A DNA stretch of 64,000 bases. It comes from Morinoia aosen (Eukaryota; Arthropoda; Malacostraca; Amphipoda; Talitridae). This document shows positions 2,107-40,664 of this stretch, one piece after another; position 1 is the stretch's first letter; every line of letters begins with the position of its first letter. The stretch covers positions 35,256,964-35,320,963 of the forward strand of contig CM059556.1 of assembly GCA_030386875.1 (NCBI GenBank). The letters run 5' to 3'. The notes beneath the pieces were generated by a model. It saw only the letters and a list, made by a program, of their open reading frames with translations. It did not search any database and was not told where the DNA came from. Position numbers and translations under genes: made by a program.

Positions 2107-2395
2107 CCTCGATTTGACCGGCGATTTTTCTTACTTTGACCGGCGTTTTCTTTCACCATGAGCGGCGATTTTTTCCCCTTGAGCTGCGATTTTTCATACC
2201 TTGAGTAGCATTTTTTTCACCGTGAATGGCAATTTTTATCCCCTAAAGCGGTGATTTTTATCCCATTGAGCGGCAATTTTTCTCATCTTGGGTGGCAATT
2301 TTTGTTTCCTCAAGCGGTGATTTTTATCCCATTGAGCAACGATTTATTGTACCCTGAGGGGCAATTTTATCTTCTTGAGCAGCGATATTTCTCAC
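2107..2395 (-). repeat. Donor-derived tandem array, ~30-bp degenerate units
   Basis: About nine units occupy the first 290 nt of the intron after exon 2396-2454. Read on the minus strand the true junction is TCAAGGTGAGAAATATCGC, and units repeat it with changes, for example TCAAGGTATGAAAAATCGC near 2190. Each unit therefore contains both the exon end and the donor. Confidence 0.8.
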
Positions 2396-2454
2396 CTTGA
2401 CGAGAGCGGCAGTCATGATGGCTCCAGAGTTGATCATGGGGTTGTGCGGCTTGT
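2396..2454 (-). CDS. GLS: Glutaminase exon, substrate-site motif (last exon in window)
   Basis: A 59-nt exon encodes (N)KPHNPMINSGAIMTAALVK. It aligns with the family block DKPHNPMVNAGAIVVTSLIK, which carries the substrate-binding asparagine of MVNAGA (Asn335 in human GLS numbering, from family knowledge). The acceptor is GTTCCAG and the donor is AAG|GTGAGA. It starts with two bases that complete a codon left open by exon 9592-9707 and ends in phase 0. Its intron begins with a repeat made of copies of this same donor. The next exon, expected to begin near the family's QGVNNAEKF region, is not visible downstream. Identification is firm; start and end rest on the splice consensus and phase. Confidence 0.94.
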
Positions 2455-2577
2455 CTGGAACATTATTAAAGATTTTTATTACCCTAAAACTAATCAAGAA
2501 ACAAAGGCGACCGCGAAAAAATACGACGAAAAATGATGTTATTACAACAAAAAACTCCATTACAATAAAACATTTAC

Positions 2578-2900
2578 TGCAGCTGTACGTACAGCATCTG
2601 GTACAGCTGTACGTACAGTATCTGGTACAGCTGTTCATACGGCATCTTATACAAATTTGCTATCATCTTATGTAGCTTCCCTCTAGTCATATACAGCAGA
2701 ACTTTCACCTCGTACAACGTCACCATCACCTTATTCATTTTTAAATTCATCTTAAACAGCTTTAAAAATAAATCTAATACAGCTTTACAATCATCTAAAA
2801 CTGTTTTACAATCATCTAGTACAGCTTTACAACCATCTAATACAGCTCTACAATAATCTAATGCAGTGTAAAAATCATTTAAGACAGTTTCACAATCACG
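2578..2900 (+). repeat. Two short tandem repeats around 'CAGCTGTACGTACAG' and 'ACAATCATCTAA'
   Basis: At 2578-2650 a ~24-bp unit (CAGCTGTACGTACAGTATCTG) occurs about three times. At 2760-2890 a ~22-bp unit (ACAATCATCTAATACAGCTT) repeats with decay. Both share ACAGCT and may be one eroded array. It lies in the glutaminase intron, with no coding signal. Confidence 0.6.
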
Positions 2901-4390
2901 TGATGCACCTTTACCATCTCTTAGTAGTTATGCAATCAAGTAGACTGAAAGGACTCATCTAGTTTTAAACGCAAAATCATTTTCTTCCCTCTTTAATTTT
3001 CAGTAATATGAACGGTTAACACAAAAGCCTACATTCACGTGTAAATGTACGAGGAGACGTTCTTTATCAATGTGACTTTTTTCTGTCCGTACGTTTTTAT
3101 AAGCAGTCCCAGCCTTGGATAACTTAATCAAAGGAAAACATGTTTGCATTTTTCCTAGAATAAACTTATTTTATTTCCATTTACTTTTCTTGGGTCTTCA
3201 GTTAGTTTTGTTACAGTACCGTCTAGGTTATTTGCGCCGTCCCCTAGGTCAGTTACTTTGTCATTTATTGCAGTTAGAGTATGCTGAATGATTTCAAAAA
3301 TATCTTTAAACACAAGTCTATGTAGATAATAAAGTGTCTGTAAATGACTTAAACGTTTAAAAAAGTTAATCAAACGTTTGAACGCAGAACAAAATTGCTA
3401 AAGTGTTATAAATCAATATTTTACGTCTCTAAACAATTAAAACATTTATCGTTCGCTGATATTAACGTTCAATAAATTAAACATTTATGGATACAAACGG
3501 TGAAAAATGAAATGCCTAAAACATATTCATAAATTTCACATGTTTCATAAATGAAGCGTACTTCAGAGTTGCTGCGTATGCCACATAACTGAATACTTAA
3601 GTGTGATCAAAGTATGAGTGGATTACTGAATAATATCAATATCACTGAAAACATGAGCGTTTGATCATACCCTCGTGTATGATCATGCTTCAGTGTATAA
3701 ACATAATTAAGTGTATGATCATACCTGAGTGTATCACTTAATATAATCTATATAACTGAATACTTGAGTATGTTCAAAGTAGGAGTGTATGATCATACTT
3801 GAGTGTATCTCTGAATACTATCACCATCATTGAAAACTTGAGTGTATGATCATATTTAAGTGTATAATTAAACCGTGTATAGTTACTTATATACGGTCCA
3901 AAACAGACGCCCACGCTCCACATGCTGCACATGGACGTACCAATATATTGTTTGAAGAAATTTATTCGTGAAAGAATAAGTATTTTCCAAACTCAAAACT
4001 ATGAAACAAAAATTAATTGCTCAGACGAATGTGGAATTCGTTTTAAAAAAAATATATTACAGCCCACGACGACACAGCTGTAACAGAAACGAGATGAAAA
4101 ATTATCTTATATCGTACAAGAAACATCTTACGATCTAGAAGGATCTACAATAGTTTCAGGAATGCAAATTAAACCGTAAGAAAGTCATCTCTGAAGCATT
4201 TCAAGCCCATTTCTTTCAAGAATTTAACATCATGAAAATAATGTCAAGCAATGCCAAGGTAATTCAAGCCGAATTGTGAGAAAAAAATTTCATTCAATGC
4301 CGAAGAGATGAAATTTTCTCGAAAGCAAACTCGGATGAGTTTTCTTAGGATCGAGACACCGTCAGATCGAGAGGGTTACTGCCCATATTG
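2901..4390. other. Intronic DNA with a degenerate 'GTGTATGATCATAC' repeat
   Basis: No exon is seen. Between about 3590 and 3880 the words GAGTGTATGATCATAC, TGAATACTTGAGT and ATCACTGAA recur in a loose tandem pattern of roughly 60-110 bp. The rest is AT-rich without recognised structure. Confidence 0.45.
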
Positions 4391-4751
4391 AAAGGGTTAC
4401 TCCCCAGCTCGGAATGATTACTCGGTAGGTCGAAAGGATTACCTGCCAGTTCGAAAAGGTTACCCGGCAGGTCGAAAGGGTTATCCGCCAGTTCAAAGGG
4501 TAATCCGCCAGTTCAAAGGGTTACTCACTAGTTTAAAGGGTAATCCGCTAGTTTAAAGGGTAATCCGCCAGTTCAAAGGGTAATCCGCCAGTTCAAAGGG
4601 TAATCCGCCAGTTCAAAGGGTAAATCACTAGTTTAAAGGGTAAATCACTAGTTTAAAGGGTAAATCACTAGTTTAAAGGGTAAATCACTAGTTTAAAGGG
4701 TAACTCACTAGTTTAAAGGGTAACTCACTAGTTTAAAGGGTAACCCGCTAG
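4391..4751 (+). repeat. 20-bp minisatellite, left part
   Basis: Units such as AGTTCAAAGGGTAATCCGCC and AGTTTAAAGGGTAAATCACT repeat about 17 times. Several variants form local blocks (ATCCGCC, then AAATCACT, then AACTCACT). The array stops at 4751 where a TTAA-class transposon is inserted and resumes at 5851. Confidence 0.9.
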
Positions 4752-4755
4752 TTTA

Positions 4756-6530: not shown

Positions 6531-9500
6531 GTTTTTCGCCAGCTCGAGACGACGCATCTTCAAACTTCGAGAAGCGACAGAATTCAACGTCGACAAGAAC
6601 GCGGAGTAAAATTAAATTGGAATTCAAATCACTTTACCGGTTTCGGAACGTGTAAGAAAGCGCGCACTTTGAAGTCGCTGGTTTTCAAGAGTAATCAAAA
6701 GTGGTGAGAATACTTCCAGGGTGAACGCAACTCGGATATTGGGCAATCCTGGGTAAAAGGTACTAGATTAGGTTAGGTAAATTATGAGGGATGAAAGAAG
6801 TAAACGTTGCTAGATAAGCTTGGGATATTGTATGATATTAATAGTTGGATTTTGCAGGATAACTTGGGGATATTGTAGGATATAAATAAGTTGCCGTTTC
6901 AAGGTAATAAAGGGTGACGTCGTAGGATATTAATATGCAAATGTTATAAAACAATCATGGGTCTGATCAACTCTTGTCATGCTACCTTTGAGTAAAAAAT
7001 ATTGACCTCGAAGCATAATCAACAACTCTGCTGAACTGTTTTCATGAATGTATTCTCAAGGTCTCTTGAAAGTTGCATTTTCTTGGGCAGCTCATAGAAC
7101 ATCTATGGGGCTACACAGCTGATGTGCATAATTTGCATTGTTGATCATTAACTGCGATAAACTACATCTATCAGGGGGATGCTGTTCTTTTCTTTTTTTA
7201 AATGCGAGCATTGCCACACATGTGCGTAACAATAGAACTCATAACCTTACAAAAAAAAAATAAATTATGTGACATTTTAGTGGTCTAAATGAAGGGATCG
7301 TGTCACTTTAAAATGAACCGACTTTGATAATTCGTTTTAATCCTAAACGTCTCGCCTATCAACCTACAGTAGAAGGACCGTGTCGTTTTCATACTTTCTT
7401 TGCACTTTCATCATTTTGTTATGCTGAATAATGCTTCCTTCAGTTGAATTTCATTTCATCATCTTTGATTTGTTATAGTCTACTTTATTGTCGAATTGAG
7501 AAACAATAGAGAAAGTTTTTGAAATTTGGGCTATGGTTTTTAGAAATCTCAGAGCAAACGAAGCAAACTGTGAGCTTTGAAAGGAGAAATCAAATTTCAT
7601 TACGCACGAAACATATCCTTCTAGATATATCATTGCTCTTAGCATCGATAAAAATTGACTAAAACAATATATTTCCAAGTATCTTGTTTCAAGATGAAGA
7701 AAAGAAAAAACTCTCTAGAAATAATTTAACAAAAAATAAAAATTTTAGAAACACCAGTCTCTGGAAACAAGTTCTGAAGGTGTCGCAATCATTTAAGACG
7801 GCATATGTCATTAGATTTATAATTTCATAACCTTACAAAAATCCCTCGCATCGTAAAAACTTATGCTGTTGAATTACGGCGAAGGATATTTGTAAGTGGT
7901 GGTTCCTCAAGGAGCGATTCCTGGCCCACCATCATTACAACTATATTGTTTGTCAGAAAGTAATTGATGTCTCTAAATCAATAGTTCCTCATCAGATCCA
8001 TTAACAAAATTCCTGTTTTATCAAACCACCAAACAATAATCTCAATATATTGCCCTACTCGATAACTGAGTTTGAGAGCTCACGACTCCAAAATTGCACT
8101 GCCAGTTATTTGACCAGACAGCTTAACGATACGGCCATTTGCTATTGAACCACAGAATAGATTGCCTGGAAATATTGATAGAGAGAGAGAGAGAGAAAGA
8201 ATTCGGTTAGAGAATTGAAGATTTCTTTATTTAAGCGAGCTCTTTATAATGGGAAATTATTAATTTAAGGACACTGGTGTAAACCATTGTGTTAGAAAAG
8301 TGAAGCCTTAACATTGTTTCCCATAAGTTGGTGAACTAGGGTGTTAGCAAAATTCTTATTCATCCATGAAATGTAGAGCTCCATGCTTAACATAATAAAT
8401 GTGCTCCGAAGAACTGAGAATACGAGGCAGCAGAGAGTTAGTGTTCTGCGAAGTGTTAGCGAATTGCAGGTTTAGCGAAATTAAAATGCATCCAAAACTG
8501 GAGACATAATAAAATTATTCTATATCGTAAAATTAGTAGGAAACATGCATAATGAAGGTATTATTTTCATGAAACTGACTGATACGAAGTTGAATAGAGT
8601 CAGTGTTCACCCAGGATTCGAGTGTAGGAAGTCGAATGAAACTATGAGGTTGAACGAATTCAATATTCAACGTAAGGTTAGAGTGTACGTACAAGGTGGA
8701 TCGAAATTATTTTCTGTGGAATTAACAGGTAGGTGGTTGAATGAAGTTAATATTTACCGTGATATTACACTGGAGGTAGAACGAATTTAATGTTTTAGAC
8801 AGGAACGTACTTTGAGGGTCAAGTCCAAGATTGGCGACCTCCCGACCTGACGGCTCCATGCCCACCCTATGGTGGATAACCTCCTCTGAGGTATCGGATG
8901 CAGCAATACCGTAATTCAGAGGGAAGCTGAAGGGAAATGAAGCATTCTCTTAGTGCTTCAGCAACATTCACCGGGATATGGTTTGAAATGCCTTCGAGAT
9001 GAACACAGACAGAAACAAGTGAACGCGCTCGTCCGTTATCGCGGTTTGGCTCAAAATATAATGTGGAAGTTCATTTAAAATTTTTGTTGCAATCCACGTC
9101 GGTATTTGATATTTTGACTCAGTCACGGCAATAAAATACATGAAGTCACGTACCGAGAAATTGAATAAGGTCTGAAAACGCAGGAGTGATCAGACTATAA
9201 GAAATAAGTTTTTCAATTTGCATAAATGCTCAACCTTTCCAGAGAACATAAATGTGAACTCGAAGTAAATCAGTATAAATATGGTCTCTAATAAATCTCT
9301 TCTTAAAACATCAAAACCAAAAATGCAGGCTTATTTTTAGGAGCAATTCCCAAAAATTTCATCGCTTCAAAATCGAAACCTTTACCGTGCACTACAAGAC
9401 AGCAGGAGTTCACTAATAACTCACCCCCGTAACTCATTTAGAATGACCAACTCGCGATATTCAATGACGTCTAGAAAAACATTTAATTCCATTGAATCTC

Positions 9501-9591
9501 ACAATGAGCATGGATAAAACAAGCAAGTTCACTGGTTTCTGTCGACAGGTAGAAGAAGCGCACCAGCCGTAGTAAAGACAAGGCAACTTAC
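6531..9591. other. Intronic DNA, no gene recognised
   Basis: AT-rich sequence with a short (GA)n tract near 8180-8198. The stretch 8830-9060 is richer in GC (CCCACCCTATGGTGGATAAC) and could be an old repeat, but I cannot name it. Short open frames here have no recognisable domain. Confidence 0.4.
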
Positions 9592-9707
9592 TTTTGTAAT
9601 CAAGGCAAAGTTCATTGAAGAACCTGCCCGAGGGCTCCAGTCCAATGTACTGGTGCATCTTGTCCGGCCCGTTGTCAGCACACGCTATCGCGTACGTTAG
9701 TGGCTTG
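9592..9707 (-). CDS. GLS: Glutaminase exon with catalytic lysine
   Basis: The 116-nt exon encodes KPLTYAIACADNGPDKMHQY and continues IGLEPSGRFFNELCLDYK. It matches human VKPLKYAIAVNDLGTEYVHRYVG and EPSGLRFNKLFL. Its first base completes the serine codon AG|C, so the catalytic motif S-x-x-K (SCSK here) is split: Ser lies in exon 12087-12214 and Lys is the first full codon of this exon. The acceptor is GTGTGATTTTAG and the donor AAAA|GTAAGT. Upstream, a 54-bp array ends about 50 nt before the acceptor. This is one of two main donors without a minisatellite behind it. Confidence 0.96.
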
Positions 9708-9759: not shown

Positions 9760-10035
9760 ATGAGGCACCACGATATTTGCGCTAATGTTAGAACCTTAAA
9801 TTCTGAACACAAAAAGGAGTACTGCAATATTTGTCCTAATGGTAGAAACTTATATTCTGAACACAAAAAGGAGTACTGCAATATTTGTCCTAATGGTAGA
9901 AACTTAAATTCTGAACACAGAAAGGAGTACTGCAATATTTGTCCTAATGGTAGAAACTTAAATTCTGAACACAGAAAAGGGTACTGCAGTATTTGTCCTA
10001 AAAGTGGATTCGTAATTCTGAAAACAGAAAGGAAC
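9760..10035 (-). repeat. 54-bp tandem array just upstream of a splice acceptor
   Basis: Five units of 54 bp, so every frame stays open (18-residue period). On the minus strand each unit contains CTCCTTTTTGTGTTCAGAAT, a pyrimidine tract followed by CAG. The degraded last copy near 9740 (ATTCCTTTGTGTGTGTAGAA) merges into the intron end of the next exon. Confidence 0.88.
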
Positions 10036-11484: not shown

Positions 11485-12062
11485 TATATCACCTTGGTAT
11501 AACAACTATGTGGCATAACACCTAGTTCCTAATAAATACCTAACTAAGTAGTATTTATAACTAGTACCTAATTAATAAATAAATAAATAGGTAGAATCTA
11601 TACCTAGTACCTTATAAATACCTAACAGCTAGGTGATATTTATACATAGTTCCTAATAAACACCTAGCAACTAGGTGGTTTTTATCCCTAATAAATACCT
11701 AACATCAAGGTGGTATTTATACCTAACAAATACCTAACATCAAGGTGGTATTTATACCTAACAAATACCCAACGACTAGGTGGTATTCATAACTAACAAA
11801 TACCCAACGACTAGGTGGTATTTATAACTAACAAATACCCAACGACTAGGTGGTCTTCGTAACTAACAAATACCCAACGACAAGGTGGTATTTATAACTA
11901 ACAAATACCCAACGACTAGGTGGTATTCATACTTAACAAATACACAACGACTAGGTGGTATTTATAAATAACAATTACATAATGAATAGGTGGTATTTAT
12001 ACCTAACAAATACCCAACAACTAGATGGAATACCCAACAAATACCCAACAATACCAAACAAC
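11485..12062 (-). repeat. ~34-bp minisatellite starting ~25 nt after a splice donor
   Basis: Units of about 34 bp (AAATACCCAACGACTAGGTGG plus a short AT spacer) repeat about 14 times and decay toward 11485. The array begins within about 25 nt of the donor of exon 12087-12214. Unlike other arrays here, the unit contains no copy of the donor. Confidence 0.88.
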
Positions 12063-12086: not shown

Positions 12087-12214
12087 CTGCACGACTGGAT
12101 AGAGAAGGGATGCTTCACGTCCCCCACAGAGTACCGCTGGCCGTCCACTGTGCAGATGGACACTCCCCAGAAGTCGGGGTTCATGTTCGACAGCTGGGGG
12201 ATGTATTGCGCTGC
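12087..12214 (-). CDS. GLS: Glutaminase exon, start of catalytic core with Ser
   Basis: The 128-nt exon encodes [20 protein letters not shown], then [22 protein letters not shown]. It aligns along its whole length with human [42 protein letters not shown]. The Tyr of YIPQL (Tyr249 in human numbering) and the catalytic Ser of QSC (Ser286) are present. The acceptor is CCTCCCCAG and the donor TGCAG|GTGTGT. It starts in phase 0 and leaves AG for the next exon. This is the strongest single piece of evidence for the gene. A non-canonical +3 to +6 donor (GTGTGT) is noted. Confidence 0.97.
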
Positions 12215-12430
12215 CTGGGGAGGAAGGGGCGTGTTATACAAAGTCGTGGGGAGTGGGGGAATGTGTTATCTATACAGCGCTGGGGAGTGGGGGGATCAGA
12301 CCTATACAGCGCCCTGGGGAGTGGGGATATTAACATATATGAACGGAAAATATTTAAGTAAAAATACTGCTATTTGGTAGGAGAGGGGAGTAAATTAGAA
12401 TTGGAAGAAAAAATAACGATACATAAAACT
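12215..12430. other. Short intron stretch upstream of the glutaminase exon
   Basis: The sequence contains GGGGAGTGGGG-like partial repeats (three copies of CAGCGC...GGGGAGTGGGG at 12245-12330). No exon is seen. Confidence 0.5.
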
Positions 12431-12619: not shown

Positions 12620-13489
12620 CTAGGCGGACCAAAAGGCGGACCAATATGGCGGACCAAAAGGCGGACCAATATGGCGGACCAAAAGAGCTAACACGGCGGA
12701 CCAAAAGAGCCAACACGGCGGACCAGAAGAGCCAACACGGCGGACCAGAAGAGCCAACACGGCGGACCAAAAGAGCCAACACGGCGGACCAAAAGAGCCA
12801 ACACGGCGGACCAAAAGAGCCAACACGGCGGACCAAAAGAGCCAACACGACGGACCAAAAGAGCCAACATGGTGGACCAAAAGAGCCAACATGGTGGACC
12901 AAAAAAGCCAACATGGTGGACCAAAAGAGCCAACATGGTGGACCAAAAGAGCCAACATGGTGGACCAAAAGAGCCAACATGGTGGACCAAAAGAGCCAAC
13001 ATGGTGGACCAAAAGAGCCAACATGGTGGACCAAAAGAGCCAACATGGTGGACCAAAAGAGCCAACATGGTGGACCAAAAGAGCCAACATGGCGGACCAA
13101 AAGAGCCAACATGGTGGACCAAAAGAGCCAACATGGCGGACCAAATGAGCCAACATGGCAGACCAAAAGAGCCAACATGGTGGACCAAAAGAGCCAACAT
13201 GGTGGACCAAAAGAGCCAACATGGTGGACCAAAAGAGCCAACATGGTGGACCAAAAGAGCCAACATGGCGGACCAAAGGAGCCAACATGGCGGACCAAAT
13301 GAGCCAACATGGTGGACCAAAAGAGCCAACATGGCGGAACAAATGAGCCAATATGGCGGACCAGAGGAATCAACATGGACGGCCAAAAGAGCCAACATGG
13401 CGGACCAAGAGAGCCAGAATGGGAGACTAAAAGGGTCAGAATGGGAGACTCAAAGGGCCAACAAGGCCGACCAGAAATCAAGAGCTCAC
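12620..13489 (-). repeat. 22-bp minisatellite filling the start of an intron
   Basis: About 38 units of GGCGGACCAAAAGAGCCAAC plus two bases, in two variants (ACACGG and ACATGG) that form blocks. Toward 13489 the units become degenerate and run straight into the donor of exon 13490-13619. The first intron bases (GAGCTCTTGATTTCTGGTCG on the minus strand) resemble a unit. The unit length is not divisible by three, yet all frames stay open because the unit lacks stops. Confidence 0.92.
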
Positions 13490-13619
13490 CAGACCCTCAC
13501 GGTTGCCCCTGCAGAGGTTGTAGAGCTTGTCGACGTCGTCACAGAAGGACCCAAACTCCGGGATGATGAACGAGTGGCTGAAGGCTCTCACCACGATCTC
13601 CAGATTCTCAGAGATGATT
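13490..13619 (-). CDS. GLS: Glutaminase exon, linker into catalytic domain
   Basis: The 130-nt exon encodes IISENLEIVVRAFSHSFIIP, then EFGSFCDDVDKLYNLCRGNREGL. Its counterpart in human GLS is [36 protein letters not shown]. The first base completes the glycine codon opened by exon 15538-15671, and the exon ends in phase 0 before AAQYIPQL. The acceptor is TTTCTGTGGTTAG and the donor GTCTG|GTGAGC. The GC content is much higher than in the surrounding intron, as in the other coding exons. The 22-bp array starts immediately after its donor. Confidence 0.94.
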
Positions 13620-13972
13620 CTAACCACAGAAATTAACCCATACTACATAGTAAAACCAAATAAACATAAAAAACGCCTAATCATAAGTGAATAAGATACA
13701 ATGATTCACGATAGAAAATTCGTTTTACCCCTTATGGGAAGTAGAAACGATGCGTGTGTTATCTCTTAGCTAATGTTTTTTCAAGAGTCTCAGTCTGTAA
13801 GAGCGTATTTAACGGAGTAGGTTCAAATCAGTTTTGAGTTTGAAATATAATTTAACTCCATGGCCCAGAGAATCGATTTAAGTCGTCATAAAATAGAACT
13901 CAATAGGTTCGCGTTTTGGTTTAGCAATAAAATAGGGAAAGTTTTTAGAACAAATTATAGAGCATCAGCTAC

Positions 13973-14924: not shown

Positions 14925-15537
14925 AGCTCCATTTCCCCCCCTCTCCCTTTCCCCACTTCCCACTCACCCCATGAACGTCTCGTATTCCACTCTCTCCTCT
15001 TCTACACTCCTTCCCCACTCCACCTCTCCCTTTCCTCACTCTGCACTTTCCCTTCCCCCAGTCCCCACTCTCCTCATCTTTTCCCCACTCCCCACTCCCC
15101 CTTTCCTCACTCCCCATTCACCCTTTTCCAACTTCCCACTCTCCTCACCCTTTTCCCGCTCCCCACTCCCCAATCACCCTTTTCCTACTCCCCACTCACT
15201 CTTTCCCCCACTCTCATCACCCTTTTCCTACTCCCCCACTCTTTCCTTATTCCCCCCCATCTCCTTTTCCCCACTCCCCACTTTCCCCTTCCCCACTCTT
15301 CTCATCCTTTCCCCACTCCCCACTCCCCCTTTCCCCACTCCCCACTCCCCCTTTCCCCACTCCCCCTTTCCCCTCTCCCCATTTTACCCTTTTCCCACTC
15401 CCTACTCTCCTCACCCTTTTCCCACTCGCCACTCACCTTTTCCCGACTCCCTCTCTCCTTTTCCCTACTCCCCACTCACCCTTTCCCCCATTCCTAGTCT
15501 TCCTTTCCCTACTCTCCCTCTCCCCACCCCTACTCAC
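14925..15537 (-). repeat. Donor-derived C/T-rich array with a second exon-end copy
   Basis: On the minus strand the array is variations on GTGAGTGGGGAGTGGGGAAA, beginning at the donor of exon 15538-15671. At the far end, 14961-14990 repeats the exon/intron junction: ACGTTCATGGGGTGAGTGGG against the real ACCTTCATGGGGTGAGTAGG. The array is thus bracketed by two copies of the junction. Confidence 0.85.
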
Positions 15538-15671
15538 CCCATGAAGGTCTGGTAGTCCACCACGAGGCTGTCGTCATCCACCTTGTCGCCCCTGCTCTTG
15601 ACATCCTCGACGTTCTCGTACATCTCGCGCAGCCGCGGGTCGTCCCCTCGCAGGCCCGTCGTCAGCAAACC
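15538..15671 (-). CDS. GLS: Glutaminase exon, EF-hand-like N-terminal domain part 2
   Basis: The 134-nt exon encodes GLLTTGLRGDDPRLREMYEN, then VEDVKSRGDKVDDDSLVVDYQTFMG. It corresponds to human ALKSTGLRTSDPRLKECMDMLRLTLQ and the LDKDLFKKCV helix. The TTGLR..DPRL signature is clear. It starts in phase 0 after FLA of exon 17480-17576 and ends in phase 2 (ATG GG|). The acceptor is TTCCGCCACAG and the donor GGG|GTGAGT. High GC content, with a repeat array made from its own donor behind it. Confidence 0.94.
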
Positions 15672-16137: not shown

Positions 16138-17024
16138 TTAGTGTTGCCTATAGGAATTATTATTTGCATCCCCTGGTCCCGGATGATTTGGGGCTGAAAT
16201 TTCCCAATCCGGGAATCCCTTTTTTCCCAGGGAATCCCCGGGATTCTAAACAATATATACATATGTGAAGATATGAATGAGAAAATAATTTAAAATCATG
16301 CTGTTTATTGTGATTTATCAATTAGAAGTCAAGATTGGACTTTAGTGTTATAGTATTATTTCAATTCACATCACTACACAGTGTAGTGTACGCTATCTCA
16401 CAATATAGCATCAGAATATATTTTGTGGTTTGGTTTTGAAGGTAATAAGGAATAAATTGTAATAGATACGGTCGCAAGTGCCGATGTTGTAGAAACTAAA
16501 GCCTTTGTGTGGCGATACTATGTTAAAAATGCAACTGACAAAAGAGCAAAGTGTATAAAGTGCGGCACGAGTTTACGTTACAAAGGCTGGTCTACCAGTT
16601 GTTTGTCACGTCTCCTAAAGAGTAAGCACAGCATAGAGAAGCCTGAAACTGTAGACCCAGTAGCGTCAACTAGTAGCTCAGAAGACAGAATTCGTATTGG
16701 AACAAAGCGCCCTCATGGAAGGGAGAGCAGTAGTGAAAGCACTAAAACTAAACAAACAAAAATAACAAGTTTCGTAAAGGTGCACCAAAGTACTCCGGAA
16801 GAACAAGGAACCAAGCTTGCAGCAGTTGATGGCGTGTCAGTAAATACAGTTACAAAGAGTGAATTCATTAGAGAATCCTTCTCAGATTAAAGGTTTTTCG
16901 CTCCCTAAATCTCCAAATACTATGATAGGCATAGGCAACAAATTATTACAATAGCATAAATGTATAAATATGAAGAAATCCCAGGATCCAGGGATTTTCA
17001 ATTTGTCCCGAGGTTGTAAACCCT
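16138..17024 (+). mobile_element. Decayed hAT-like element
   Basis: A BED-finger coding remnant sits between ends that look hAT-like. The left end is TAGTGTTGCCTATAGG with GGGAATCCC-type runs. The reversed right end is TAGGGTTTACAACCTCGGGA with AAATCCCTGGATCC. I could not establish an 8-bp target duplication. The boundaries are therefore approximate. Confidence 0.55.
16507..16890 (+). pseudogene. hAT transposase N-terminal fragment (BED zinc finger)
   Basis: The frame, open from about 16460, encodes FVWRYYVKNATDKRAKCIKC, then GTSLRYKGWSTSCLSRLLKSKH. The spacing W-x-Y-F/Y ... C-x2-C ... L-x3-H fits a BED-type zinc finger, the usual N-terminal DNA-binding domain of hAT transposases. It is followed by a Ser/Lys-rich linker (KTKQTKITSF) and then a stop after RESFSD. 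No RNase H-like catalytic core or C-terminal dimerisation region follows, so only the first ~130-140 residues of a 600-residue protein remain. It lies in a glutaminase intron in the opposite orientation and is probably non-functional. Confidence 0.65.
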
Positions 17025-19654: not shown

Positions 19655-19934
19655 ACTAATGCGCATCTAGGTTAACTGAATTACGTTGAACATAATTGTA
19701 CACCTTAGAATAGCGTTGTTGATAAGGTGCTCTAGAAGTCAATAAACCTAGTCGGGCCATTGTGACGTCTTGGGCATCTTAGTCGAGCTACTCAAATGTG
19801 TCCTAAAAGCCTCAAGAAACAATCTACTGAAGTATCGTTTGTGAAAACTAAATTGCTCAAATTGTTGGAATTGTATAAGTTGTTTAAATTACTTAAATTC
19901 TGTAAATTGTTTAAATGATTTACATGATTTAAAC
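19655..19934 (+). mobile_element. Old CR1-like LINE 3' end
   Basis: Follows the 3' UTR of the 47-kb LINE with many changes (AGGTTAACTGAATTACGTTG, TACACCTTAGAATAGCG, TCTAGAAGTCAATAAACCTAG). It ends in an eroded AATTGTTTA tail. It stops about 20 bp from the donor of the 19955-21783 exon. Confidence 0.75.
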
Positions 19935-19954
19935 ACGGCACAGAAGTCACTTAC

Positions 19955-20188
19955 TCGACACAGTGCGACACCGTCCGGCTCAAGCGCTTAGGTGTCGATT
20001 TACCACGGCCCAGCGACAGATACAGAGGCTCTAGCCGACGCCGAGGTTTCTTTCGATATTCGATGACCTCCGAACTATTTGTGTTGCATGGGTTTGGTGG
20101 ACTACACATGGGACAGTTCTGGGCCTCCATTACAGAAATTTTACTCCTGCATGAATAGGGTTCTTTTTCTCTATGTGAAAGACGCTTC

Positions 20189-20239
<51 letters not shown>

Positions 20240-21783
20240 CTGTACGTGTTGCTTTCCAGTCCTTTTGGCGAGATTCGTTTAGCGTTAGGAGAGAGATTAT
20301 CTGCTTCCTCACCTGAATTTTCCTCATCTTTATCAAGAGAAACAAAGTTGACTGCCTGACATATGCCAGAAGCCTTGAGGGTTTTGTTCATGCGTTCCAC
20401 GGATGGCAAGAGTTTTTCCAAATTTTTGGACGAGTTTATCTCGCGGATGTCTTCCAGAGAGAATGAAACTTCCTTACGCATATCATCTTTAACATTTATG
20501 GAAGTTTTCCTGGACTGCAAAAATAGCCTCGGATATTCCGGATGACTTGCCGCTTCTTCTACATTTAATTCAGTCAGCGGAACAGGCGTGGATGGGTAAC
20601 CGCAAGACGCTGGGGGCTCTGAGCTGTTAGAATCTGCACAAAATTTCTCCGCCGTATTTTGAGCACTTCCTACTTCACTTAAACGGCTTGATAAAATCAG
20701 AGGTCCACTACAAACCCGTTTTTCTTCCCGTCGATTTTTACCGTCCAGTTTCTTATTAGCAAAACACAGGTCTCTATCATGGTTTCCTGAAACGTGCATT
20801 CCATTTAGGACAAGGCCTGTTTTAGAAACAGCGCAGGGCTGCACCGAATGGCACATTCTGCATTGAAGTTTGTTAGCACAAATGTCAGTATCATCTGAAT
20901 CGCTTGAAGTGCCACAGTTGCTGCTACCAAGGTGACCAGAGCGGTAACGCAAGATGCTAGAGATTGGTTTTGATGACATTTCGTCTTCCGCACCGTCAGC
21001 CGTGTTGGCCAATTCACGTTCTGAGGCCGAAGGTACTGATACCCCTCCGATTTCATTCATGTTTTGGCGAATAGTCTTCTGTACGGTCAAGTTTGTCTTA
21101 TGAACGAGACAAGTCTGAGATGAGCTCGAAAGGTCTTGAATCTTGTTCATGCACGTTCTAGTGGACCTTTTATAGGTTTTTGTATGACCACATCCCGTCT
21201 TGCAACAACAGCATCCTGTTGGTTGCGCGTATCCCGTGCATCTTGACTTGCCATTTTGGTTTCGTACATCAAGCCTTTGATCTTCGTGCGCGCAGGGGCA
21301 GTTGTGGTCAAAAGGAACGCCGCTTGAGTCACTCACGTCATCGCCCTCAGAGCCACGCGATGAGCTGGTCGCGGAGGAAGCTGATATTAAATCAGACCGA
21401 GACATCGTGATATGTCTGACTGATTTAAAGAATGGATTACCGCAGTCTGCATGCTGCTTCTTCTGATCTCGGGCTCGACTTGTGAGTTTGTTGACTTGCT
21501 TGTCGCCATCTCGATTAGTAGAACGTTTGTTGGTTCCCTTACTACGCGGCGCGTGCACCGACGGATGAGGAGTGCAAATTATCTTTGGACGTAGCTTAGG
21601 GGAACCTTTGTGAATTCCCGCTCCGTTTAGATCTAGGTGTAACTTCTCGGTCACGCTTCGAGATTCGTTGGAGTTGAGTCCACTAGCAGCCGGAAGGTTT
21701 GACGTTTTATGAACTCGACTGCATTGTCCTGGAATGGTCTTCATGCTCGAACTTCGAGGGCTTGGTTCTGTTTCTATGCGCAT
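19955..21783 (-). CDS. Probable alternative first exon of glutaminase, 609 codons, unknown protein
   Basis: An uninterrupted ATG-initiated frame, with an in-frame TAA 12-15 nt upstream of the ATG, encodes about 610 residues of no recognised family. It is Ser/Lys/Arg-rich, with a Cys-rich segment at about residues 162-211 (CPC, CCCCKTGCGHTK), a second cysteine group near 302-317, a 17-residue aspartate run near 516-532, and CPMC/NPC near 558-567. The frame would stop one codon after GTC GAG, but GTC GA is followed by GTAAGTGAC, a near-perfect donor. It leaves phase 2, exactly what exon 17480-17576 accepts, giving ...SHCVE-LVKLHF. The simplest reading is an alternative promoter and N-terminus for glutaminase. 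A nested single-exon gene is the alternative. No acceptor in phase with the upstream exon was found near the ATG. Confidence 0.65.
20188..20239 (-). repeat. (ATC)n microsatellite inside coding frame
   Basis: About 17 pure GAT codons on the minus strand encode a poly-Asp run in the open exon. The purity suggests recent expansion and length variation. Confidence 0.95.
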
Positions 21784-22200
21784 TACGATACAAAATTAGG
21801 GCCTAGATTGTAAAATGTCAGCGAAGGTCTCGCAGTCGCCAAGTAGGAAAAATATCTCTAATGCTGTATTCGCTTTTCGTCGATTACTAGTATGAACTAC
21901 TCTAACTCAAACTTTGAAATCTGCTAGAAATAATTTGCATTTTAACGTCCACATTCAATAATTATTACGAGACTATGAGTATTATTTCTATAACATTTAA
22001 TAAAGTCTAAACGATGCGGGAGCTATGCTGAAAATAAGTGCAGACGACGTCACAGTTCTGAGAGACAATCGTCCAAACAACACCAGCGTTCTGCGCTCTA
22101 ACGACACGGATCTCGAGGAAAAAATAATGACTACGAATAGGGCCAATAACTTTTGGAAAACAATCCGTACGCATAGTTTAAGGAAAACTGATTCAAAAAA
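21784..22200. other. Putative 5' flank of the long open exon
   Basis: AT-rich sequence upstream (in minus orientation) of the 610-codon frame. If that frame is a first exon, its promoter should lie here. I see no convincing core promoter element. Confidence 0.3.
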
Positions 22201-31538: not shown

Positions 31539-31644
31539 TCGTAGACGTGGGATGACACCATGCTGCTCTTCCTGCGCTCCTTCCTCTTGGCGTCGTAGCT
31601 CGTGTTGGAGTCGGACGACAGGCCACGCATCAGGTCTTCTGGAA
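31539..31644 (-). CDS. GLS: Glutaminase N-terminal exon (basic/serine segment)
   Basis: The 106-nt exon encodes VPEDLMRGLSSDSNTSYDAK, then RKERRKSSMVSSHVYE. It has no strong family match, as expected for the variable N-terminal region before the EF-hand-like domain. Support is structural: the acceptor GCTTGTCAG, the donor TACGA|GTGAGT, a GC-rich island in AT-rich DNA, and matching phase at both ends. It completes AAA G|TT from exon 33394-33902 and leaves GA for exon 17480-17576. Its donor is followed by the ~85-bp array. The role is inferred from position only. Confidence 0.75.
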
Positions 31645-32890: not shown

Positions 32891-33019
32891 TAACCAGGTG
32901 GACTACTTTAGTTTTTGCCCTTAACTTCTTATTGAAGTGACTCACTAATCAAAATTTATCTTTTTTGAGGAATACTCGCCTGTTCTATAGAAATTAAATA
33001 TTATCGTTTTTAACCTTAT

Positions 33020-33393
33020 TCTAACGGCAAGCATTCATATTAAATACTCACTTGTTGTATCAATACCAAATATTGCATATTGTAACCATATTCGAATAGC
33101 AAGCGTCCATATTAAATATTCAAATGTTCTATAAATATTCAATATTACCAATTGTAATCATATTCGAATAGCAAGCGTACATATTAAATATTCCCCTGTT
33201 GTATGAATATAAAATATCACCTGTTGGATAAATATTAAATACTACATGTTGTATAAATACTATGTATCACCTCTTGTATATATGTTAAACATCATCTATT
33301 GTATAAATATGAAATATCACTTGCTGCATAAATATAAAAATATCACTTATATAAATACAAAATATTACCTATTGTACATGTCTCAAATATTAC
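33020..33393 (-). repeat. Donor-derived AT-rich array, ~24-30-bp units
   Basis: Starts at the donor of exon 33394-33902. Minus-strand units such as AATAGGTAATATTTTGTATT and AACAGGTGATATTTTATATT copy the junction AAAAGGTAATATTTGAGACA. About ten units, becoming longer and more diverged toward 33020. Confidence 0.8.
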
Positions 33394-33902
33394 CTTTTGC
33401 AACGGGCCACGCATCAGAGTTCCCTCCATTCATGCCACCTTGGGCGAGAGCATCGGCAAAGCAGTCGCTCAAGTCGGACATTTCGATGCTGGTCTTCCTG
33501 AGAGCGCTCTTGACCGGCCCAATGGCGGTCAGCGAGGCTGTTCTTTCGTTCGTTCTGGACGACGGTGAGGAGGGGGTTTTGGCTGTCTTTCCGTCGCTCA
33601 CGGATGGACTGTTGCGGGAAGACGATGTGAATGTGGTAGACGGGATAGACATTGTGGACGGTATGGATGGCGTGCACGTGGTAGACGTCGTGGATGAAGA
33701 GTACGAAGTAGAAAAGGTAAACTGTGTGGACGAGGTGGTTGAAGTGGACGTGGTAGACGGAGGAGGTTCAGTCAAAGATATGATCGGTGGAGTTACAACT
33801 GGGGACCCTGCTCCTACGATAGCTCGTTTGCGTCCTGACGTTGTGATGTCGCGGGTGCCTCCATTAGAGGTCGGCACAGAGTTCGTTTCTTGCTTCCCAC
33901 CG
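33394..33902 (-). CDS. GLS: Glutaminase N-terminal exon, Ser/Thr/Pro-rich
   Basis: The 509-nt exon is open throughout and encodes about 169 residues of low complexity: a PTSNGGTRDITTSGRKRAIV start, a Ser/Thr-rich middle (PPPSTTSTSTTSSTQFTFST), and a more ordered end SALRKTSIEMSDLSDCFADA then LAQGG and SDAWPVAK. The acceptor is TTTTGCTACAACAG and the donor AAAAG|GTAATA. Phase fits exon 37499-37576 (AA|C) on one side and exon 31539-31644 (G|TT) on the other. This could be the disordered segment after a mitochondrial presequence, but no family match supports that. The first internal ATG codons lie mid-exon. The assignment to glutaminase is by phase, strand and order. Confidence 0.75.
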
Positions 33903-34544: not shown

Positions 34545-37498
34545 GACCGGGCATCGCAGTACAATACAAAACACAACACGCAGCAAAGTGCAGTGCAAAA
34601 CTGAACTCGATACACAGCACAACGCACAAAGTAACACACAATGATACATACAACACGAAACATACATCCCAACACCCAACACCACACAGAAGGTAACACA
34701 ACACACATAACAACACACCACAACTCGGACCAAAACACAACACGGAGCTCAACATAGTACAACACTAGACAGCACAACAGAACAGCACAGCGTAACCCAA
34801 CACACACTGCAGCACAATACAAAGTAAGACACAATACATCAAGCAATACAACTTATAGCACAGCGCAACACAACACACAGCACCACACAACAAAAATATG
34901 CATAGCACTACACAACACAACGCATTACACATCACAACGCACTACACAATACTATATCATATACAGCACAATAGGGAGCTCACCGCAACATAGAGCACAA
35001 TAGCGCCATACAACACACAGCATTACACAGCACAATACAGAGCACAACATAGAGCCCATCACAGCGCAACACAACGCACAACACAACACAACATAACACA
35101 ACAGCACACACCACTGCACGACATAACACAGCACATCGTAACAACACAACGTAACACAAAACACTCCACAATACAAAGCTCAACACACAACATAACACAA
35201 TATACAGTACAACACAGTACACAGCCAAACACCACACACAACACAACACAATATACAGTATAACACAGTAAACAGCCCAACACACACAACACAACGCAAT
35301 TTACAGTACAACACAGAACACAGCCCAACACACACCACACAACACAAAGCTCAAACAAAGCTCAAACAAAGCTCAAACAAAGCTCAAACAAAGCTCAAAC
35401 AAAGCTCAAACAAAGCTCAAACAAAGCTCAAACAAAGCTCAAACAAAGCTCAAACAAAGCTCAAACAAAGCTCAAACAAAGCTCAAACAAAGCTCAAACA
35501 AAGCTCAAACAAAGCTCAAACAAAGCTCAAACAAAGCTCAAACAAAGCTCAAACAAAGCTCAAACAAAGCTCAAACAAAGCTCAAACAAAGCTCAAACAA
35601 AGCTCAAACAAAGCTCAAACAAAGCTCAACACAAAGCTCAACACAAAGCTCAACACAAAGCTCAACACAAAGCTCAACACAAAGCTCAACACAAAGCTCA
35701 ACACAAAGCTCAACACAAAGCTCAAACAAAGCTCAAACAAAGCTCAAACAAAGCTCAACACAAAGCTCAACACAAAGCTCAACACAAAGCTCAACACAAA
35801 GCTCAACACAAAGCTCAACACAAAGCTCAACACAAAGCTCAACACAAAGCTCAACACAAAGCTCAACACAAAGCTCAACACAAAGCTCAACACAAAGCTC
35901 AACACAAAGCTCAACACAAAGCTCAACACAAAGCTCAACACAAAGCTCAACACAAAGCTCAACACAAAGCTCAACACAAAGCTCAACACAAAGCTCAACA
36001 CAAAGCTCAACACAAAGCTCAACACAAAGCTCAACACAAAGCTCAACACAAAGCTCAACACAAAGCTCAACACAAAGCTCAACACAAAGCTCAACACAAA
36101 GCTCAACACAAAGCTCAACACAAAGCTCAACACAAAGCTCAACACAAAGCTCAACACAAAGCTCAACACAAAGCTCAACACAAAGCTCAACACAAAGCTC
36201 AACACAAAGCTCAACACAAAGCTCAACCCACAGCTCAACCCACAGCTCAACCCACAACTCAACCCACAACTCAACCCACAACTCAACCCACAACTCAACC
36301 CACAACTCAACCCACAACTCAACCCACAACTCAACCCACAACTCAACCCACAACTCAACCCACAACTCAACCCACAACTCAACCCACAACTCAACCCACA
36401 ACTCAACCCACAACTCAACCCACAACTCAACCCACAACTCAACCCACAACTCAACCCACAACTCAACCCACAACTCAACCCACAACTCAACCCACAACTC
36501 AACCCACAACTCAACCCACAACTCAACCCACAACTCAACCCACAACTCAACCCACAACTCAACCCACAACTCAACCCACAACTCAACCCACAACTCAACC
36601 CACAACTCAACCCACAACTCAACCCACAACTCAACCCACAACTCAACCCACAACTCAACCCACAACTCAACCCACAACTCAACCCACAACTCAACCCACA
36701 ACTCAACCCACAACTCAACCCACAACTCAACCCACAACTCAACCCACAACTCAACCCACAACTCAACCCACAACTCAACCCACAACTCAACCCACAACTC
36801 AACACACAACTCAACACACAACTCAACACACAACTCAACACACAACTCAACACACAACTCAACACACAACTCAACACACAACTCAACACACAACTCAACA
36901 CACAACTCAACACACAACTCAACACACAACTCAACACACAACTCAACACACAACTCAACACACAACTCAACACACAACTCAACACACAACTCAACACACA
37001 ACGCAACACACAACGCAACACACAACTCAACACACAACTCAACACACAACTCAACACACAACTCAACACACAACTCAAAACACAGCTCAACACACAACTC
37101 AACACACAACTCTAAACAACACACAACACGATACACAGCACAACATGACACATAACACACAATACACGGCACACAAACAACAATAAACACAACACTATGC
37201 ATAACACAACACAAAGCTCAACAATACAACCCACAACACAAAGCTCAACACACAACACAATAGACGACGCACAACAAACAACACAACCCACAACACAAAG
37301 CCCAACACACAACACAATACACGACACACAACACAACCCACAACACAAAGCTCAACACACAACACAATACACGACACACAACACAACCCACAACACAAAG
37401 CTCAACACACAACACAATACAAGACACACAGCACAACCCACAACACAAAGCTCAACACACAACACAATACAAGACACACAACACACAACTCAACACAC
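34545..37498 (-). repeat. 3-kb donor-derived array, 11/12-bp units in homogeneous blocks
   Basis: From 37498 downward the minus strand starts GTGTGTTGAGTTGTGTG, and the unit GTGTGTTGAGTT repeats. Blocks: about 37110-36800 (ACAACTCAACAC on plus), 36800-36225 (ACAACTCAACCC), 36225-35635 (AAAGCTCAACAC), 35635-35343 (11-bp AAAGCTCAAAC), then a degraded ACAACACAGCAC-like zone to 34545. The long Cys/Val/Leu-type frames across it are artefacts. Confidence 0.9.
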
Positions 37499-37576
37499 TT
37501 CACTAAAGCCGCCTTGCCAGGCGCGGGACCGCCGCTGCAGTCGAGAAAGGCGGAGAGGTCGTCCCCCACCGTCACT
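37499..37576 (-). CDS. GLS: Probable N-terminal exon of the same gene
   Basis: The 78-nt GC-rich exon encodes VTVGDDLSAFLDCSGGPAPG, then KAALV. The acceptor is TTGCCCCCAG and the donor GTGAA|GTGTGT. It leaves two bases (AA) that the first base of exon 33394-33902 completes, and it accepts two bases from exon 40587-40664. No domain is recognised. Support is the open frame, phase, splice sites, and contrast with the surrounding AT-rich and repeat DNA. The array behind its donor is made of the donor's own sequence. Confidence 0.6.
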
Positions 37577-38525
37577 CTGGGGGCAACAAAGGGGCCGCTC
37601 TTCAGGGTTCAGTGGCACATTTACCGTCATTCAAGCATCAAAGAGCTTATAGAGTAAAGAGATATTTGTTGGCAAACGCCAGAGGTAGTGTGAAGCACTT
37701 TTTGCGATGTAGCCATGTTTACAATACCTGACTTGTATTGGCGTTTTTGCCAACTGGTGATAAATTGAGAACGAAGATAGTGCAACTGATACTAGTATTT
37801 TACAGTTAAGTGATATAGATTGTATGGTGAAACTGTAATTCATATTGAATTATATCCAGGAAAAACTTTTGAGTTTAACCTTTAATTAATGGTTGATTTA
37901 ATTTAATCTTTAATGGTTGACCACTAAATTTCAAAACTTATTTCAACTTTCAGAGAAAAATTAGGGTCAAATTTCACTTCAAATTATAAAATAAAAAGGC
38001 ACTTCTTCCAACAGGACGGTGCTCCTTCTCACGGCTCTAGCAAATATTTCATTTTCATCCCACAAATTCTCCGGCCAAGTGAACAGCTAACTTTTGAACC
38101 CAACTTAGCCCTCTCACAGACATGACCTTAGTTTCTTAGTTTTGGGAGAGATGGAAACCACTGTTTACTAACGCAAGATTGATTCGAGGGGAAATTCGAA
38201 GAAATTTGAGAAAAAAACGAAGGGAAAAGGAACAAGGAAAAGGTTCGACGCATCACTGCTGTTGAGACCAGCTATCAATAAGACGGGTATTTTTCAGCTT
38301 GGATTTTAGTTTTCTCATTGCGAATGCTTCAATTCGAAATTCAACCTCTATCAATACAGACCCAGAATTCACAGGTAAACTTGTGAGCTTCCCCTGAAGA
38401 GTATTGACATAGTGAAAAATTTCAATAAATAATTTACTGTTTATGTGATTTAAACTAGCTTTTTTGATGTATAGAATACCAGTTAGGCGATAATTTATAA
38501 TTAGAGTGGCTAATCGTCAGTCATT
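37577..38525. other. AT-rich intronic DNA, nothing identified
   Basis: No recognisable exon, repeat or element. Short frames only. Confidence 0.4.
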
Positions 38526-38529
38526 CAAT

Positions 38530-40586
38530 GGGTGTAGTCAGCCACTCACGGGGTATAGTCAGCCACTCACGGGGTATAGTCAGCCACTCACGGGGTATAG
38601 TCAGCCACTCACGGGGTATAGTCAGCCACTCACGGGGTATAGTCAGCCACTCACTGGGTATAGTCAGCCACTCACTGGGTACAGTCAGTCACTCACTGGG
38701 TATAGTCAGCCCCTCACTGGGTATAGTCAGCCCCTCACTGGGTATAGTCAGCCCCTCACTGGGTATAGTCAGCCCCTCACTGGGTATAGTCAGCCCCTCA
38801 CTGGGTATAGTCAGCCCCTCACTGGGTGTAGTCAGCCCCTCACTGGGTGTAGTCAGCCCCTCACTGGGTGTAGTCAGCCCCTCACTGGGTGTAGTCAGCC
38901 CCTCACTGGGTGTAGTCAGCCACTCACTGGGTGTAGTCAGCCACTCACTGGGTGTAGTCAGCCACTCACTGGGTGTAGTCAGCCACTCACTGGAAGTAGT
39001 CAGCCACTCACTGGGTGTAGTCAGCCACTCACTGGGTGTAGTCAGCCACTCACTGGGTGTAGTCAGCCACTCACTGGGTGTAGTCAGCCACTCACTGGGT
39101 GTAGTCAGCCACTCACTGGGTGTAGTCAGCCACTCACTGGGTGTAGTCAGACACTCACTGGGTGTAGTCAGCCACTCACTGGGTGTAGTCAGACACTCAC
39201 TGGGTGTAGTCAGCCACTCACTGGGTGTAGTCAGCCACTCACTGGGTGTAGTCAGCCACTCACTGGGTGTAGTCAGCCACTCACTGGGTGTAGTCAGCCA
39301 CTCACTGGGTGTAGTCAGCCACTCACTGGGTGTAGTCAGCCACTCACTGGGTGTAGTCAGCCACTCACTGGGTGTAGTCAGCCACTCACTGGGTGTAGTC
39401 AGCCACTCACTGGCTGTAGTCAGACACTCACTGGCTGTAGTCAGACACTCACTGGCTGTAGTCAGACACTCACTGGCTGTAGTCAGACACTCACTGGCTG
39501 TAGTCAGACACTCACTGGCTGTAGTCAGACACTCACTGGCTGTAGTCAGACACTCACTGGCTGTAGTCAGACACTCACTGGCTGTATTCAGACACTCACT
39601 GGCTGTAGTCAGACACTCACTGGCTGTAGTCAGACACTCATTGGGTGTAGTCAGCCACTCACTGGGTGTAGTCAGCCACTCACTGGGTGTAGTCAGCCAC
39701 TCACTGGGTGTAGTCAGCCACTCACTGGGTGTAGTCAGCCACTCACTGGGTGTAGTCAGCCACTCACTGGGTGTAGTCAGCCACTCACTGGGTGTAGTCA
39801 GCCACTCACTGGGTGTAGTCAGCCACTCACTGGGTGTAGTCAGCCACTCACTGGGTGTAGTCAGCCACTCACTGGGTGTAGTCAGCCACTCACTGGGTGT
39901 AGTCAGCCACTCACTGGGTGTAGTCAGACACTCACTGGGTGTAGTCAGACACTCACTGGGTGTAGTCAGCCACTCACTGGGTGTAGTCAGCCACTCACTG
40001 GGTGTAGTCAGCCACTCACTGGATGTAGTCAGCCACTCACTGGATGTAGTCAGCCACTCACTGGGTGTAGTCAGCCACTCACTGGGTGTAGTCAGCCACT
40101 CACCGGGTGTAGTCAGCCACTCACCGGGTGTAGTCAGCCACTCACCGGGTGTAGTCAGCCACTCACTGGGTGAAGTCAGCCACTCACTGGGTGTAGTCAG
40201 CCACTCACTGGGTGTAGTCAGACACTCACTGGGTGTAGTCAGACACTCACTGGGTGTAGTCAGCCACTCACTGGGTGTAGTCAGCCACTCACTGGGTGTA
40301 GTCAGCCACTCACTGGATGTAGTCAGCCACTCACTGGATGTAGTCAGCCACTCACTGGGTGTAGTCAGCCACTCACTGGGTGTAGTCAGCCACTCACCGG
40401 GTGTAGTCAGCCACTCACCGGGTGTAGTCAGCCACTCACCGGGTGTAGTCAGCCACTCACTGGGTGAAGTCAGCCACTCACTGGGTGTAGTCAGCCACTC
40501 ACTGGGTGTAGTCAGCCACTCACTGGGTGTAGTCAGACACTCACTGGGTGTAGTCAGACACTCACTGGGTGTAGTCAGCTACTCAC
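38530..40586 (-). repeat. 21-bp donor-derived array, ~98 units
   Basis: Each unit on the minus strand is TGGCTGACTACACCCA followed by GTGAG. The real exon end at 40587 is TGGCTGACAATACCAA followed by GTGAG. So every unit is an imperfect copy of the last 16 exon bases plus the first five intron bases. Variants (CTATACCCA, CTACAGCCA, GTCTGAC) form blocks. A ~300-bp segment at about 39910-40150 recurs nearly identically at 40200-40480. Confidence 0.95.
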
Positions 40587-40664
40587 TTGGTATTGTCAGC
40601 CAGTTCGGCGGCGGTGCTGTCTCTCACAGATCACAACCCGCTGCTGCTTGACTCACTCCTGCTT
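40587..40664 (-). CDS. Doubtful 5' exon with an in-frame stop
   Basis: The donor ACCAA|GTGAGT is strong, and the acceptor TTTTGTACTTGCAG fits at 40665. The frame demanded by exon 37499-37576 reads RDSTAAELADNT-K at the exon end, but going upstream it meets TGA about 45 nt before the donor. The exon may be 5' non-coding at its start with no ATG visible, shorter with an unrecognised acceptor, damaged, or mis-assembled next to a 2-kb repeat. It is kept because its last 16 bases are the source sequence of the 21-bp array. Confidence 0.35.

Follow-up and report, generated by a model that had tools for sequence, protein, structure and literature searches.

Tandem arrays that run across exon–intron borders in the amphipod Morinoia aosen

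A glutaminase gene with tandem arrays beside its donors

The window analyzed here, C1:35256964-35320963, is a stretch of 64,000 nucleotides (nt) of the genome of the amphipod Morinoia aosen (1.99 Gb in 29 contigs). Its minus strand carries a chain of exons that, judged by sequence similarity, is a glutaminase gene, and tandem arrays adjoin several of the 5' splice sites (donors) of this gene. The original prediction had regarded the donor as a recurrent seed of tandem duplication. The analysis revealed that introns of this genome contain tandem copies of their own exon–intron border, well beyond chance, and that the copying has no peak at the donor.

The exons were searched by tblastn with a human glutaminase sequence. 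In gene order, matches were found at 15668 (weak, E value 0.92), 13621, 12217, 9706, and 2485, and they continued beyond the left end of the window (positions are those of the window unless a contig is named). The PF04960 profile marked several exons of this gene as well as of a glutaminase paralog on contig C13. The exons of four donors were glutaminase matches with E values from 2e-4 to 2e-14:

13490..13621, minus strand: glutaminase exon RIISENLEIVV..., reaching to donor 13489 (E 2e-4; donor sequence seen)
12087..12217, minus strand: glutaminase exon, reaching to donor 12086 (E 1.5e-14; also marked by PF04960)
9592..9706, minus strand: glutaminase exon with a donor (9592) that lacks an array (E within the range given above)
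2396..2485, minus strand: glutaminase exon ending in ...DKPHNPMINSGAIMTAALVK at donor 2396 (E 3.6e-6)

About 65 nt ahead of the acceptor of the third of these exons lies a 54-nt array (9773-10033). A variant of the glutaminase exon at 9587-9706 lies at 8818-8922 (PLNYGIAASDTSEEVIHHRVGMEPSG...); it may have its own splice sites at both ends, an acceptor and a donor, and is by its sequence a candidate mutually exclusive exon.

The original prediction had given eight donor positions by number, and a GT is present within two bases of each; the two donors left unnamed were taken to be 13489 and 12086. The exon of donor 15538 is the short, weak glutaminase match (E 0.92), which stands in the correct order. 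Donors 31539 and 33394 terminate plausible open frames, and the frame at 33394 comprises at least 140 amino acids and had no Pfam match. For the exon of donor 17480, the support is a likeness, seen by eye, to the EF-hand region. Neither homology nor a long open frame was found upstream of donors 40587 and 37499, and therefore their exons are unproven; these stretches may be untranslated, or may not be exons at all.

Arrays were defined by a Tandem Repeats Finder (TRF) score of at least 40 and a period of at least 7, and they were counted when they lay on the intron side within 25 nt of a donor. Seven of the ten donors had such an array (40587, 37499, 33394, 15538, 13489, 12086, and 2396), one fewer than predicted: in addition to 9592 and 17480, which had been named as the only exceptions, donor 31539 lacks an array within 660 nt, even at a TRF score of 30. 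The share of seven out of ten compares with 0.263 per random window position (binomial p=0.005; rigid shift of the donors p=0.0008), and without the unproven donors 40587 and 37499, it was five out of eight (binomial p about 0.03; rigid shift p=0.026). This high share was not repeated elsewhere, because only 2 of the 15 other donors of the gene and its paralog outside the window had an array within 25 nt; two had a junction copy. Some arrays beside donors are to be expected because minisatellites are common in this genome: array coverage ranged from 0 to 47% per 10-kb stretch (twenty stretches, seven of them picked blind) and was 24% in the window.

Next, we quantified whether the repeat units contain the junction. 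The 30 nt around each junction were compared with the next 320 nt of the intron, and chance was taken from comparisons of junctions with other introns. Such mispaired comparisons scored at least 18/30 in 2%, 19 in 0.4%, and 20 in 0.08% of cases. The features at the donors were as follows (a slash marks the junction):

38516..40602, minus strand: 21-nt array of about 99 copies with 97% match, crossing the putative donor 40587 and about 16-20 nt upstream of it (self-copy score 26/30)
35330..37498, minus strand: 12-nt GT-rich array of about 180 copies, beginning at the GT of the putative donor 37499; unit without exon bases (22/30)
32981..33399, minus strand: degenerate 25/72-nt AT-rich array beside donor 33394; first unit resembling CAAAAG/GTAATATTT (18/30, chance about 0.02)
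31539..31644, minus strand: short exon without array, at which the claimed donor copy was not confirmed (14/30)
15012..15525, minus strand: degenerate array, purine-rich on this strand, starting about 13 nt past donor 15538 (16/30, not above chance)
12623..13473, minus strand: 22-nt array of 38 copies, starting 16 nt past donor 13489; unit without the junction (14/30)
11500..12061, minus strand: array complex starting 25 nt past donor 12086; unit without the junction (15/30)
2114..2401, minus strand: degenerate 22/66-nt array at donor 2396, including the last five exon bases (TCAAG/GTGAGAAA...) (19/30, chance about 0.004)

It had been claimed that six units contain the junction. This applies strongly to 40587, where the exon is unproven and all 12 listed copies retain the GT, and in a degenerate form to 2396 and 33394, but not to 37499, 15538, and 31539. 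The further claim that no array copies a real acceptor was correct for the window, in which none of the seven acceptors tested reached 20/30, but not for the gene. At the acceptor C1:35253263, which belongs to the second exon past the left end of the window (3.7 kb outside), three upstream copies of the acceptor, with a spacing of 65 nt, include about 25 exon nt.

Introner elements, in which one element is inserted at many introns, were considered as a source of the units and were rejected by inspection, as the units of the window and of the sample described below differ between introns. The pattern GTAAGT-N6-GTAAGT had 1845 matches, compared to 7034 for the reversed pattern, and this count was uninformative.

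Border copies at conserved exons of other genes

Exons outside the window were sampled through matches to myosin heads (79) and to dynein DHC_N2 (31). Kinesin and phosphatase exons were located as well, but the sample was confined to these two families. Nine of the 79 myosin matches were dropped (in two the domain ended inside the exon, seven were not retrieved), as were three of the 31 dynein matches, which were single full-length exons. The remaining 98 exons, with about 350-500 nt on each side, yielded 95 donors and 95 acceptors, all of them predicted splice sites. A filter on the predicted sites left 79 donors and 85 acceptors. The glutaminase genes contributed another 15 donors and 12 acceptors from outside the window, which brought the totals to 94 donors and 97 acceptors.

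A copy of the junction with a score of at least 20/30 was present in the adjoining intron at 10 of 94 donors versus 3 of 97 acceptors (Fisher p=0.046). At 22/30, the numbers were 8 of 94 and 2 of 97 (p=0.055). Mispaired junctions gave 0.0008-0.001 per site, i.e., about 0.07 would be expected among 94 donors, where 10 were seen, and hence the original prediction is supported in so far as introns contain copies of their own border far more often than chance would give. The tandem unit crosses the border of homology-matched exons at the loci L048, L059, L075, L037, C13:46791163, C1:35253263, and others. The unit lengths of the junction copies of the sample ranged from 18 to about 122 nt, and the border copies at conserved exons of genes other than that of the window include 10-45 exon bases. 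Three of the best examples are:

Myosin donor L048: 42-nt spacing, 10 copies at 19/30 or higher, about 20 exon nt
Glutaminase paralog donor C13:46791163: four copies at 19/30 or higher, about 45 exon nt plus the donor
Myosin acceptor L047: one copy, about 30 exon nt

The GT was kept in 10 of 10 listed copies at L048, but in only 3 of 12 listed copies at L075. In the unfiltered sample, 10 of 95 donors and 4 of 95 acceptors had an array within 25 nt. Arrays covered a fraction of 0.069 of the 10 nt that follow the 95 donors, compared to 0.12-0.15 between 50 and 200 nt.

The two glutaminase genes on C1 and C13 have junctions in common (e.g., ...TTCCAG/ and ...TGCAG/GTGTGT). At one intron common to both paralogs, an array is found 16-17 nt past the donor in each, yet the units are unrelated (13489 vs. 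C13:72090). Because the paralogs share junctions and nevertheless carry unrelated arrays at this intron, the introns look older than the arrays.

Copying has no peak at the junction

The position of the copied sequence was analyzed with 30-nt windows that were shifted across the junction. A window was counted as a first copy when it had a copy farther into the intron and none behind. On the exon side of the 94 donors, the counts were 0 at -45, 3 at -30, 4 at -20, 8 at -10, and 8 at -5. At the junction and beyond, they were 10 at 0, 12 at +5, 14 at +10, 15 at +15, 12 at +20, and 10 at +30, and deeper in the intron 13 at +45, 11 at +60, 11 at +80, 9 at +100, and 7 at +120. For the 97 acceptors, 3 were counted at the junction and 4 between 5 and 15 nt; the counts rose to 11-12 at 20-60 nt, stood at 10 at 80 nt, and fell to 3-4 at 100-120 nt. 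The acceptor curve therefore resembles the donor curve, but starts only 20 nt into the intron, which is approximately the length of the pyrimidine tract. The donor sits on the shoulder of a broad zone, without a peak at the junction.

A share of 0.139 of positions has a copy somewhere downstream, and against this value the donors showed no excess (p=0.455); 9 of 95 donors likewise showed none when compared to this share in random stretches (0.164), in the C13 region (0.098), or in the window (0.233). We preferred the first-copy rate as a control because the length of the arrays inflates this share. Donors are copied more often than acceptors (p about 0.05), but not more often than neighboring intron positions. 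The donor was rejected as the seed on the basis of the offset profiles, as the copy rate does not peak at the junction, a similar plateau precedes the acceptors, and acceptors are copied as well.

Array edges are concentrated near exons

The rates of array edges (first or last copies) were 0.07-0.12 at 10-120 nt on both sides of the exons and 0.012-0.027 beyond 170 nt. Pooled near and far rates were 0.090 vs. 0.021 on the donor side and 0.083 vs. 0.014 on the acceptor side. In these counts, windows that belong to one array are not independent of each other, and the filter for neighboring exons kept 115 of about 460 windows in the donor bin of 10-40 nt. In the long introns of the glutaminase genes, the rates at less than 100 nt and at more than 1 kb were 0.095 vs. 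0.032 for C1, which includes the window, and 0.048 vs. 0.018 for C13. As a measure of age, pieces of intron that match another sampled locus were counted: 13 of 177 near the exon, 17 of 173 farther away, and 48 of 360 in random sequence.

The donor, probably a tolerated edge

On balance, we favor the explanation that the arrays are minisatellites of the kind named "mirages" in amphioxus, and that the donor is a tolerated edge of duplication and not its seed. Tandem duplications would arise in intron sequence, with slippage or repair as possible causes. When the duplicated stretch straddles a donor, the exon would stay whole if the spliceosome used the first (upstream) donor, and the later copies would be intron. 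Such a change would be nearly invisible to selection, and the array could therefore grow. The use of the first donor would hide the downstream copies from selection, which would make the donor a tolerated edge rather than a seed. A stretch that straddles an acceptor would be safe only if splicing used the last acceptor and skipped an earlier, complete copy that has a pyrimidine tract too, and for this reason acceptor-straddling stretches would survive less often. Duplications wholly within an exon would be lost. The fading of the copies by 45 nt into the exon, the about threefold higher number of copied donors than of copied acceptors, and the shifted acceptor curve are as expected if duplication ignores splice sites and splicing filters what survives. 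The retention of GT in the copies at L048 and 40587 is consistent with extra donors being tolerated. Arrays probably gather near exons because the old parts of once-short introns lie there, and these introns would later have been filled by mobile DNA and arrays.

Several results weigh against this explanation. The first-copy rate at donors, 10 of 94, is higher than the general rate of 0.027 in the twenty 10-kb stretches (p=0.0002), with the neighboring positions equally high, and 9 of 95 donors compare with 0.030 (p=0.0025) or, inside the sampled introns, with 0.048 (p=0.05). The share of window donors that have an array exceeds the prediction from the background. At 2 of 10 common introns, each of the two paralogs has an array no more than 25 nt from the donor, with unrelated units; chance would give this with a probability of 0.13. 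Edges are about fourfold (donor side) and sixfold (acceptor side) denser at 10-120 nt than at 170-340 nt, which a uniform birth of arrays would not give. The age test pointed in the right direction, but was weak (near vs. far p=0.45, near vs. random p=0.04). Lastly, some counted copies are marginal, namely L046 with a doubtful donor, L061:66-104 without exon bases, and the AT-rich acceptor L021.

The strongest competitor, which we nevertheless regard as unlikely, is a mechanism linked to exons (through co-transcriptional splicing, chromatin, or replication) that raises tandem duplication in the roughly 120 nt next to an exon, on both sides, and copies intron ends and sometimes exon ends. It would account for the edge rates on both sides and for the same direction of the effect in the C1 and C13 glutaminase genes, i.e., at less than 100 nt versus more than 1 kb. 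However, short ancestral introns into which mobile DNA was later inserted would look the same with no special process, the windows of one array are not independent, and the sample consists of two protein families and two glutaminase genes.

Considerably less probable is the model of the original prediction, in which the 5' splice site starts tandem duplication, by its sequence or by R-loops or splicing at this site, and introns lengthen by copying their donors. The preponderance of copied donors over copied acceptors (10/94 vs. 3/97), the arrays beside 7 of 10 window donors, the excess over the general first-copy rate (p=0.0002), and the unrelated arrays 16-17 nt past the same donor in two paralogs would all fit this model. 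Against it, sequence windows from +15 to +80 nt match the junction in how often they are first copies, with a like plateau before acceptors; of the 15 donors that the two glutaminase genes have outside the window, 2 have an array within 25 nt; and array coverage at the 95 donors is lower at 0-10 nt than at 50-200 nt (0.069 vs. 0.12-0.15).

Just as improbable is a mixture of coincidence and choice, in which arrays of a minisatellite-rich genome abut some donors by chance and some donors were placed at array edges since the units hold GTGAGT or GTGTGT: the coverage by arrays (0-47% in stretches of 10 kb, 24% of the window), the failure of donor 31539, and the fact that the two highest self-copy scores (40587 and 37499) belong to the two donors without exon support speak for it, but conserved exons of other genes have border copies with 10-45 exon bases, and the rigid shift gave p=0.0008 for all ten donors and p=0.026 for the eight better supported ones.

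Relation to amphioxus mirages and other systems

A system of this kind, of which the original prediction was not aware, has been described: border-crossing repeats have been named in amphioxus (PMC3087553, PMC3902484). Mirages are tandem repeats across exon–intron borders that were named in amphioxus Adh3 and are also described in the globin genes BflGb6 and BflGb9; in the globins, both borders are affected, and the data of the authors suggest regular splicing (PMC3087553). Further examples from lancelets, TnC and PGBD5, are also cited (PMC3087553, PMC3902484). According to both reports, a minisatellite-like unit of 10-160 bp spans the border, both 5' and 3' borders occur, and many, but not all, copies keep the AG/GT. 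In M. aosen, border-spanning units of 18 to about 122 nt, within this range, were likewise found at real exons and at both borders. Within the window, border-spanning units are confined to the degenerate arrays at 2396 (five exon nt) and 33394 and to 40587, where the exon is unproven. The mirages differ in that their hosts are cephalochordates, whereas the present host is an arthropod, for which a frequency (10/94 donors, 3/97 acceptors) is available. One muscle-myosin exon of this genome scored best against PDB chains of water bug, fruit fly, and tarantula (148, 148, 146, and 134 bits), above the myosins of vertebrates (115) and scallop (111); a second exon also placed tarantula and fly at the top, though only slightly above the vertebrates.

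The Rogers model of intron gain, a tandem genomic duplication of AGGT, was also considered. In this model, a duplicated stretch that bears splice signals is spliced out and leaves the mRNA unchanged (PMC3443670). The arrays described here share with that model that a duplicated stretch bearing splice signals would be removed without a change of the mRNA. They differ in that no new intron is involved: the compared glutaminase introns are common to both paralogs, while the arrays are not shared. For these introns, gain by tandem duplication was rejected on this ground.

Ordinary intronic minisatellites or variable number tandem repeats have similar unit lengths and degenerate edges. The difference is that a minority of the arrays described here extends across the splice junction into coding sequence. 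Among the matches listed by our literature search, no border-copying minisatellites outside the cephalochordates were named in titles or abstract openings; subscription literature lay mostly beyond this search. As far as the search shows, the animal group, the frequency, and the crowding of array edges into the 120 nt or so on either side of exons are new. Border-crossing repeats, a little-known peculiarity of amphioxus genes, are thereby extended to another, distantly related group of animals, in which their frequency can be measured. The copies also represent a natural series of competing, nearly identical donors and acceptors that can serve to study the choice of the first donor or of the last acceptor by the spliceosome. 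The accumulation of edges beside exons would have a bearing on intron growth, if it survives a whole-genome test.

Additional features of the window and the sampled loci

A 614-amino-acid open frame with an aspartate run (19951-21795, minus strand) lies inside the large glutaminase intron, on the strand of the gene; a Pfam search yielded no match at an E value of 0.001. On the plus strand, the open frame 16456-16890 has a BED zinc finger and is perhaps derived from a DNA transposon. A retrotransposon without long terminal repeats (LTRs) is located at 44109-47110 (upstream part 42108-43001); its endonuclease and reverse transcriptase domains lie in two frames that overlap, and it is followed by a TAAATTGTT repeat at 47488-47521. 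Similar 9-mers form arrays at 370-539 and 19849-19933, which are perhaps tails of other retrotransposon copies.

The relay exon of muscle myosin is present in six tandem versions at C1:35644596-35648320 (L027), some 320 kb away from the window; these versions are likely mutually exclusive exons. Aldehyde dehydrogenase exons were rejected as a test sample, as all 11 scored (out of 144 candidates) were uninterrupted, bacteria-like matches on C27 (C27:56269717-72696909); this contig may contain bacterial sequence. Kinesin exons with equal or nearly equal scores are found in pairs 1-4 Mb apart, at C16:45757691 and 47110390, C2:33785279 and 37776474, and C3:20912622 and 22748945. These pairs are candidates for recent segmental duplicates or uncollapsed haplotypes and would be useful for comparing the copy numbers of arrays.

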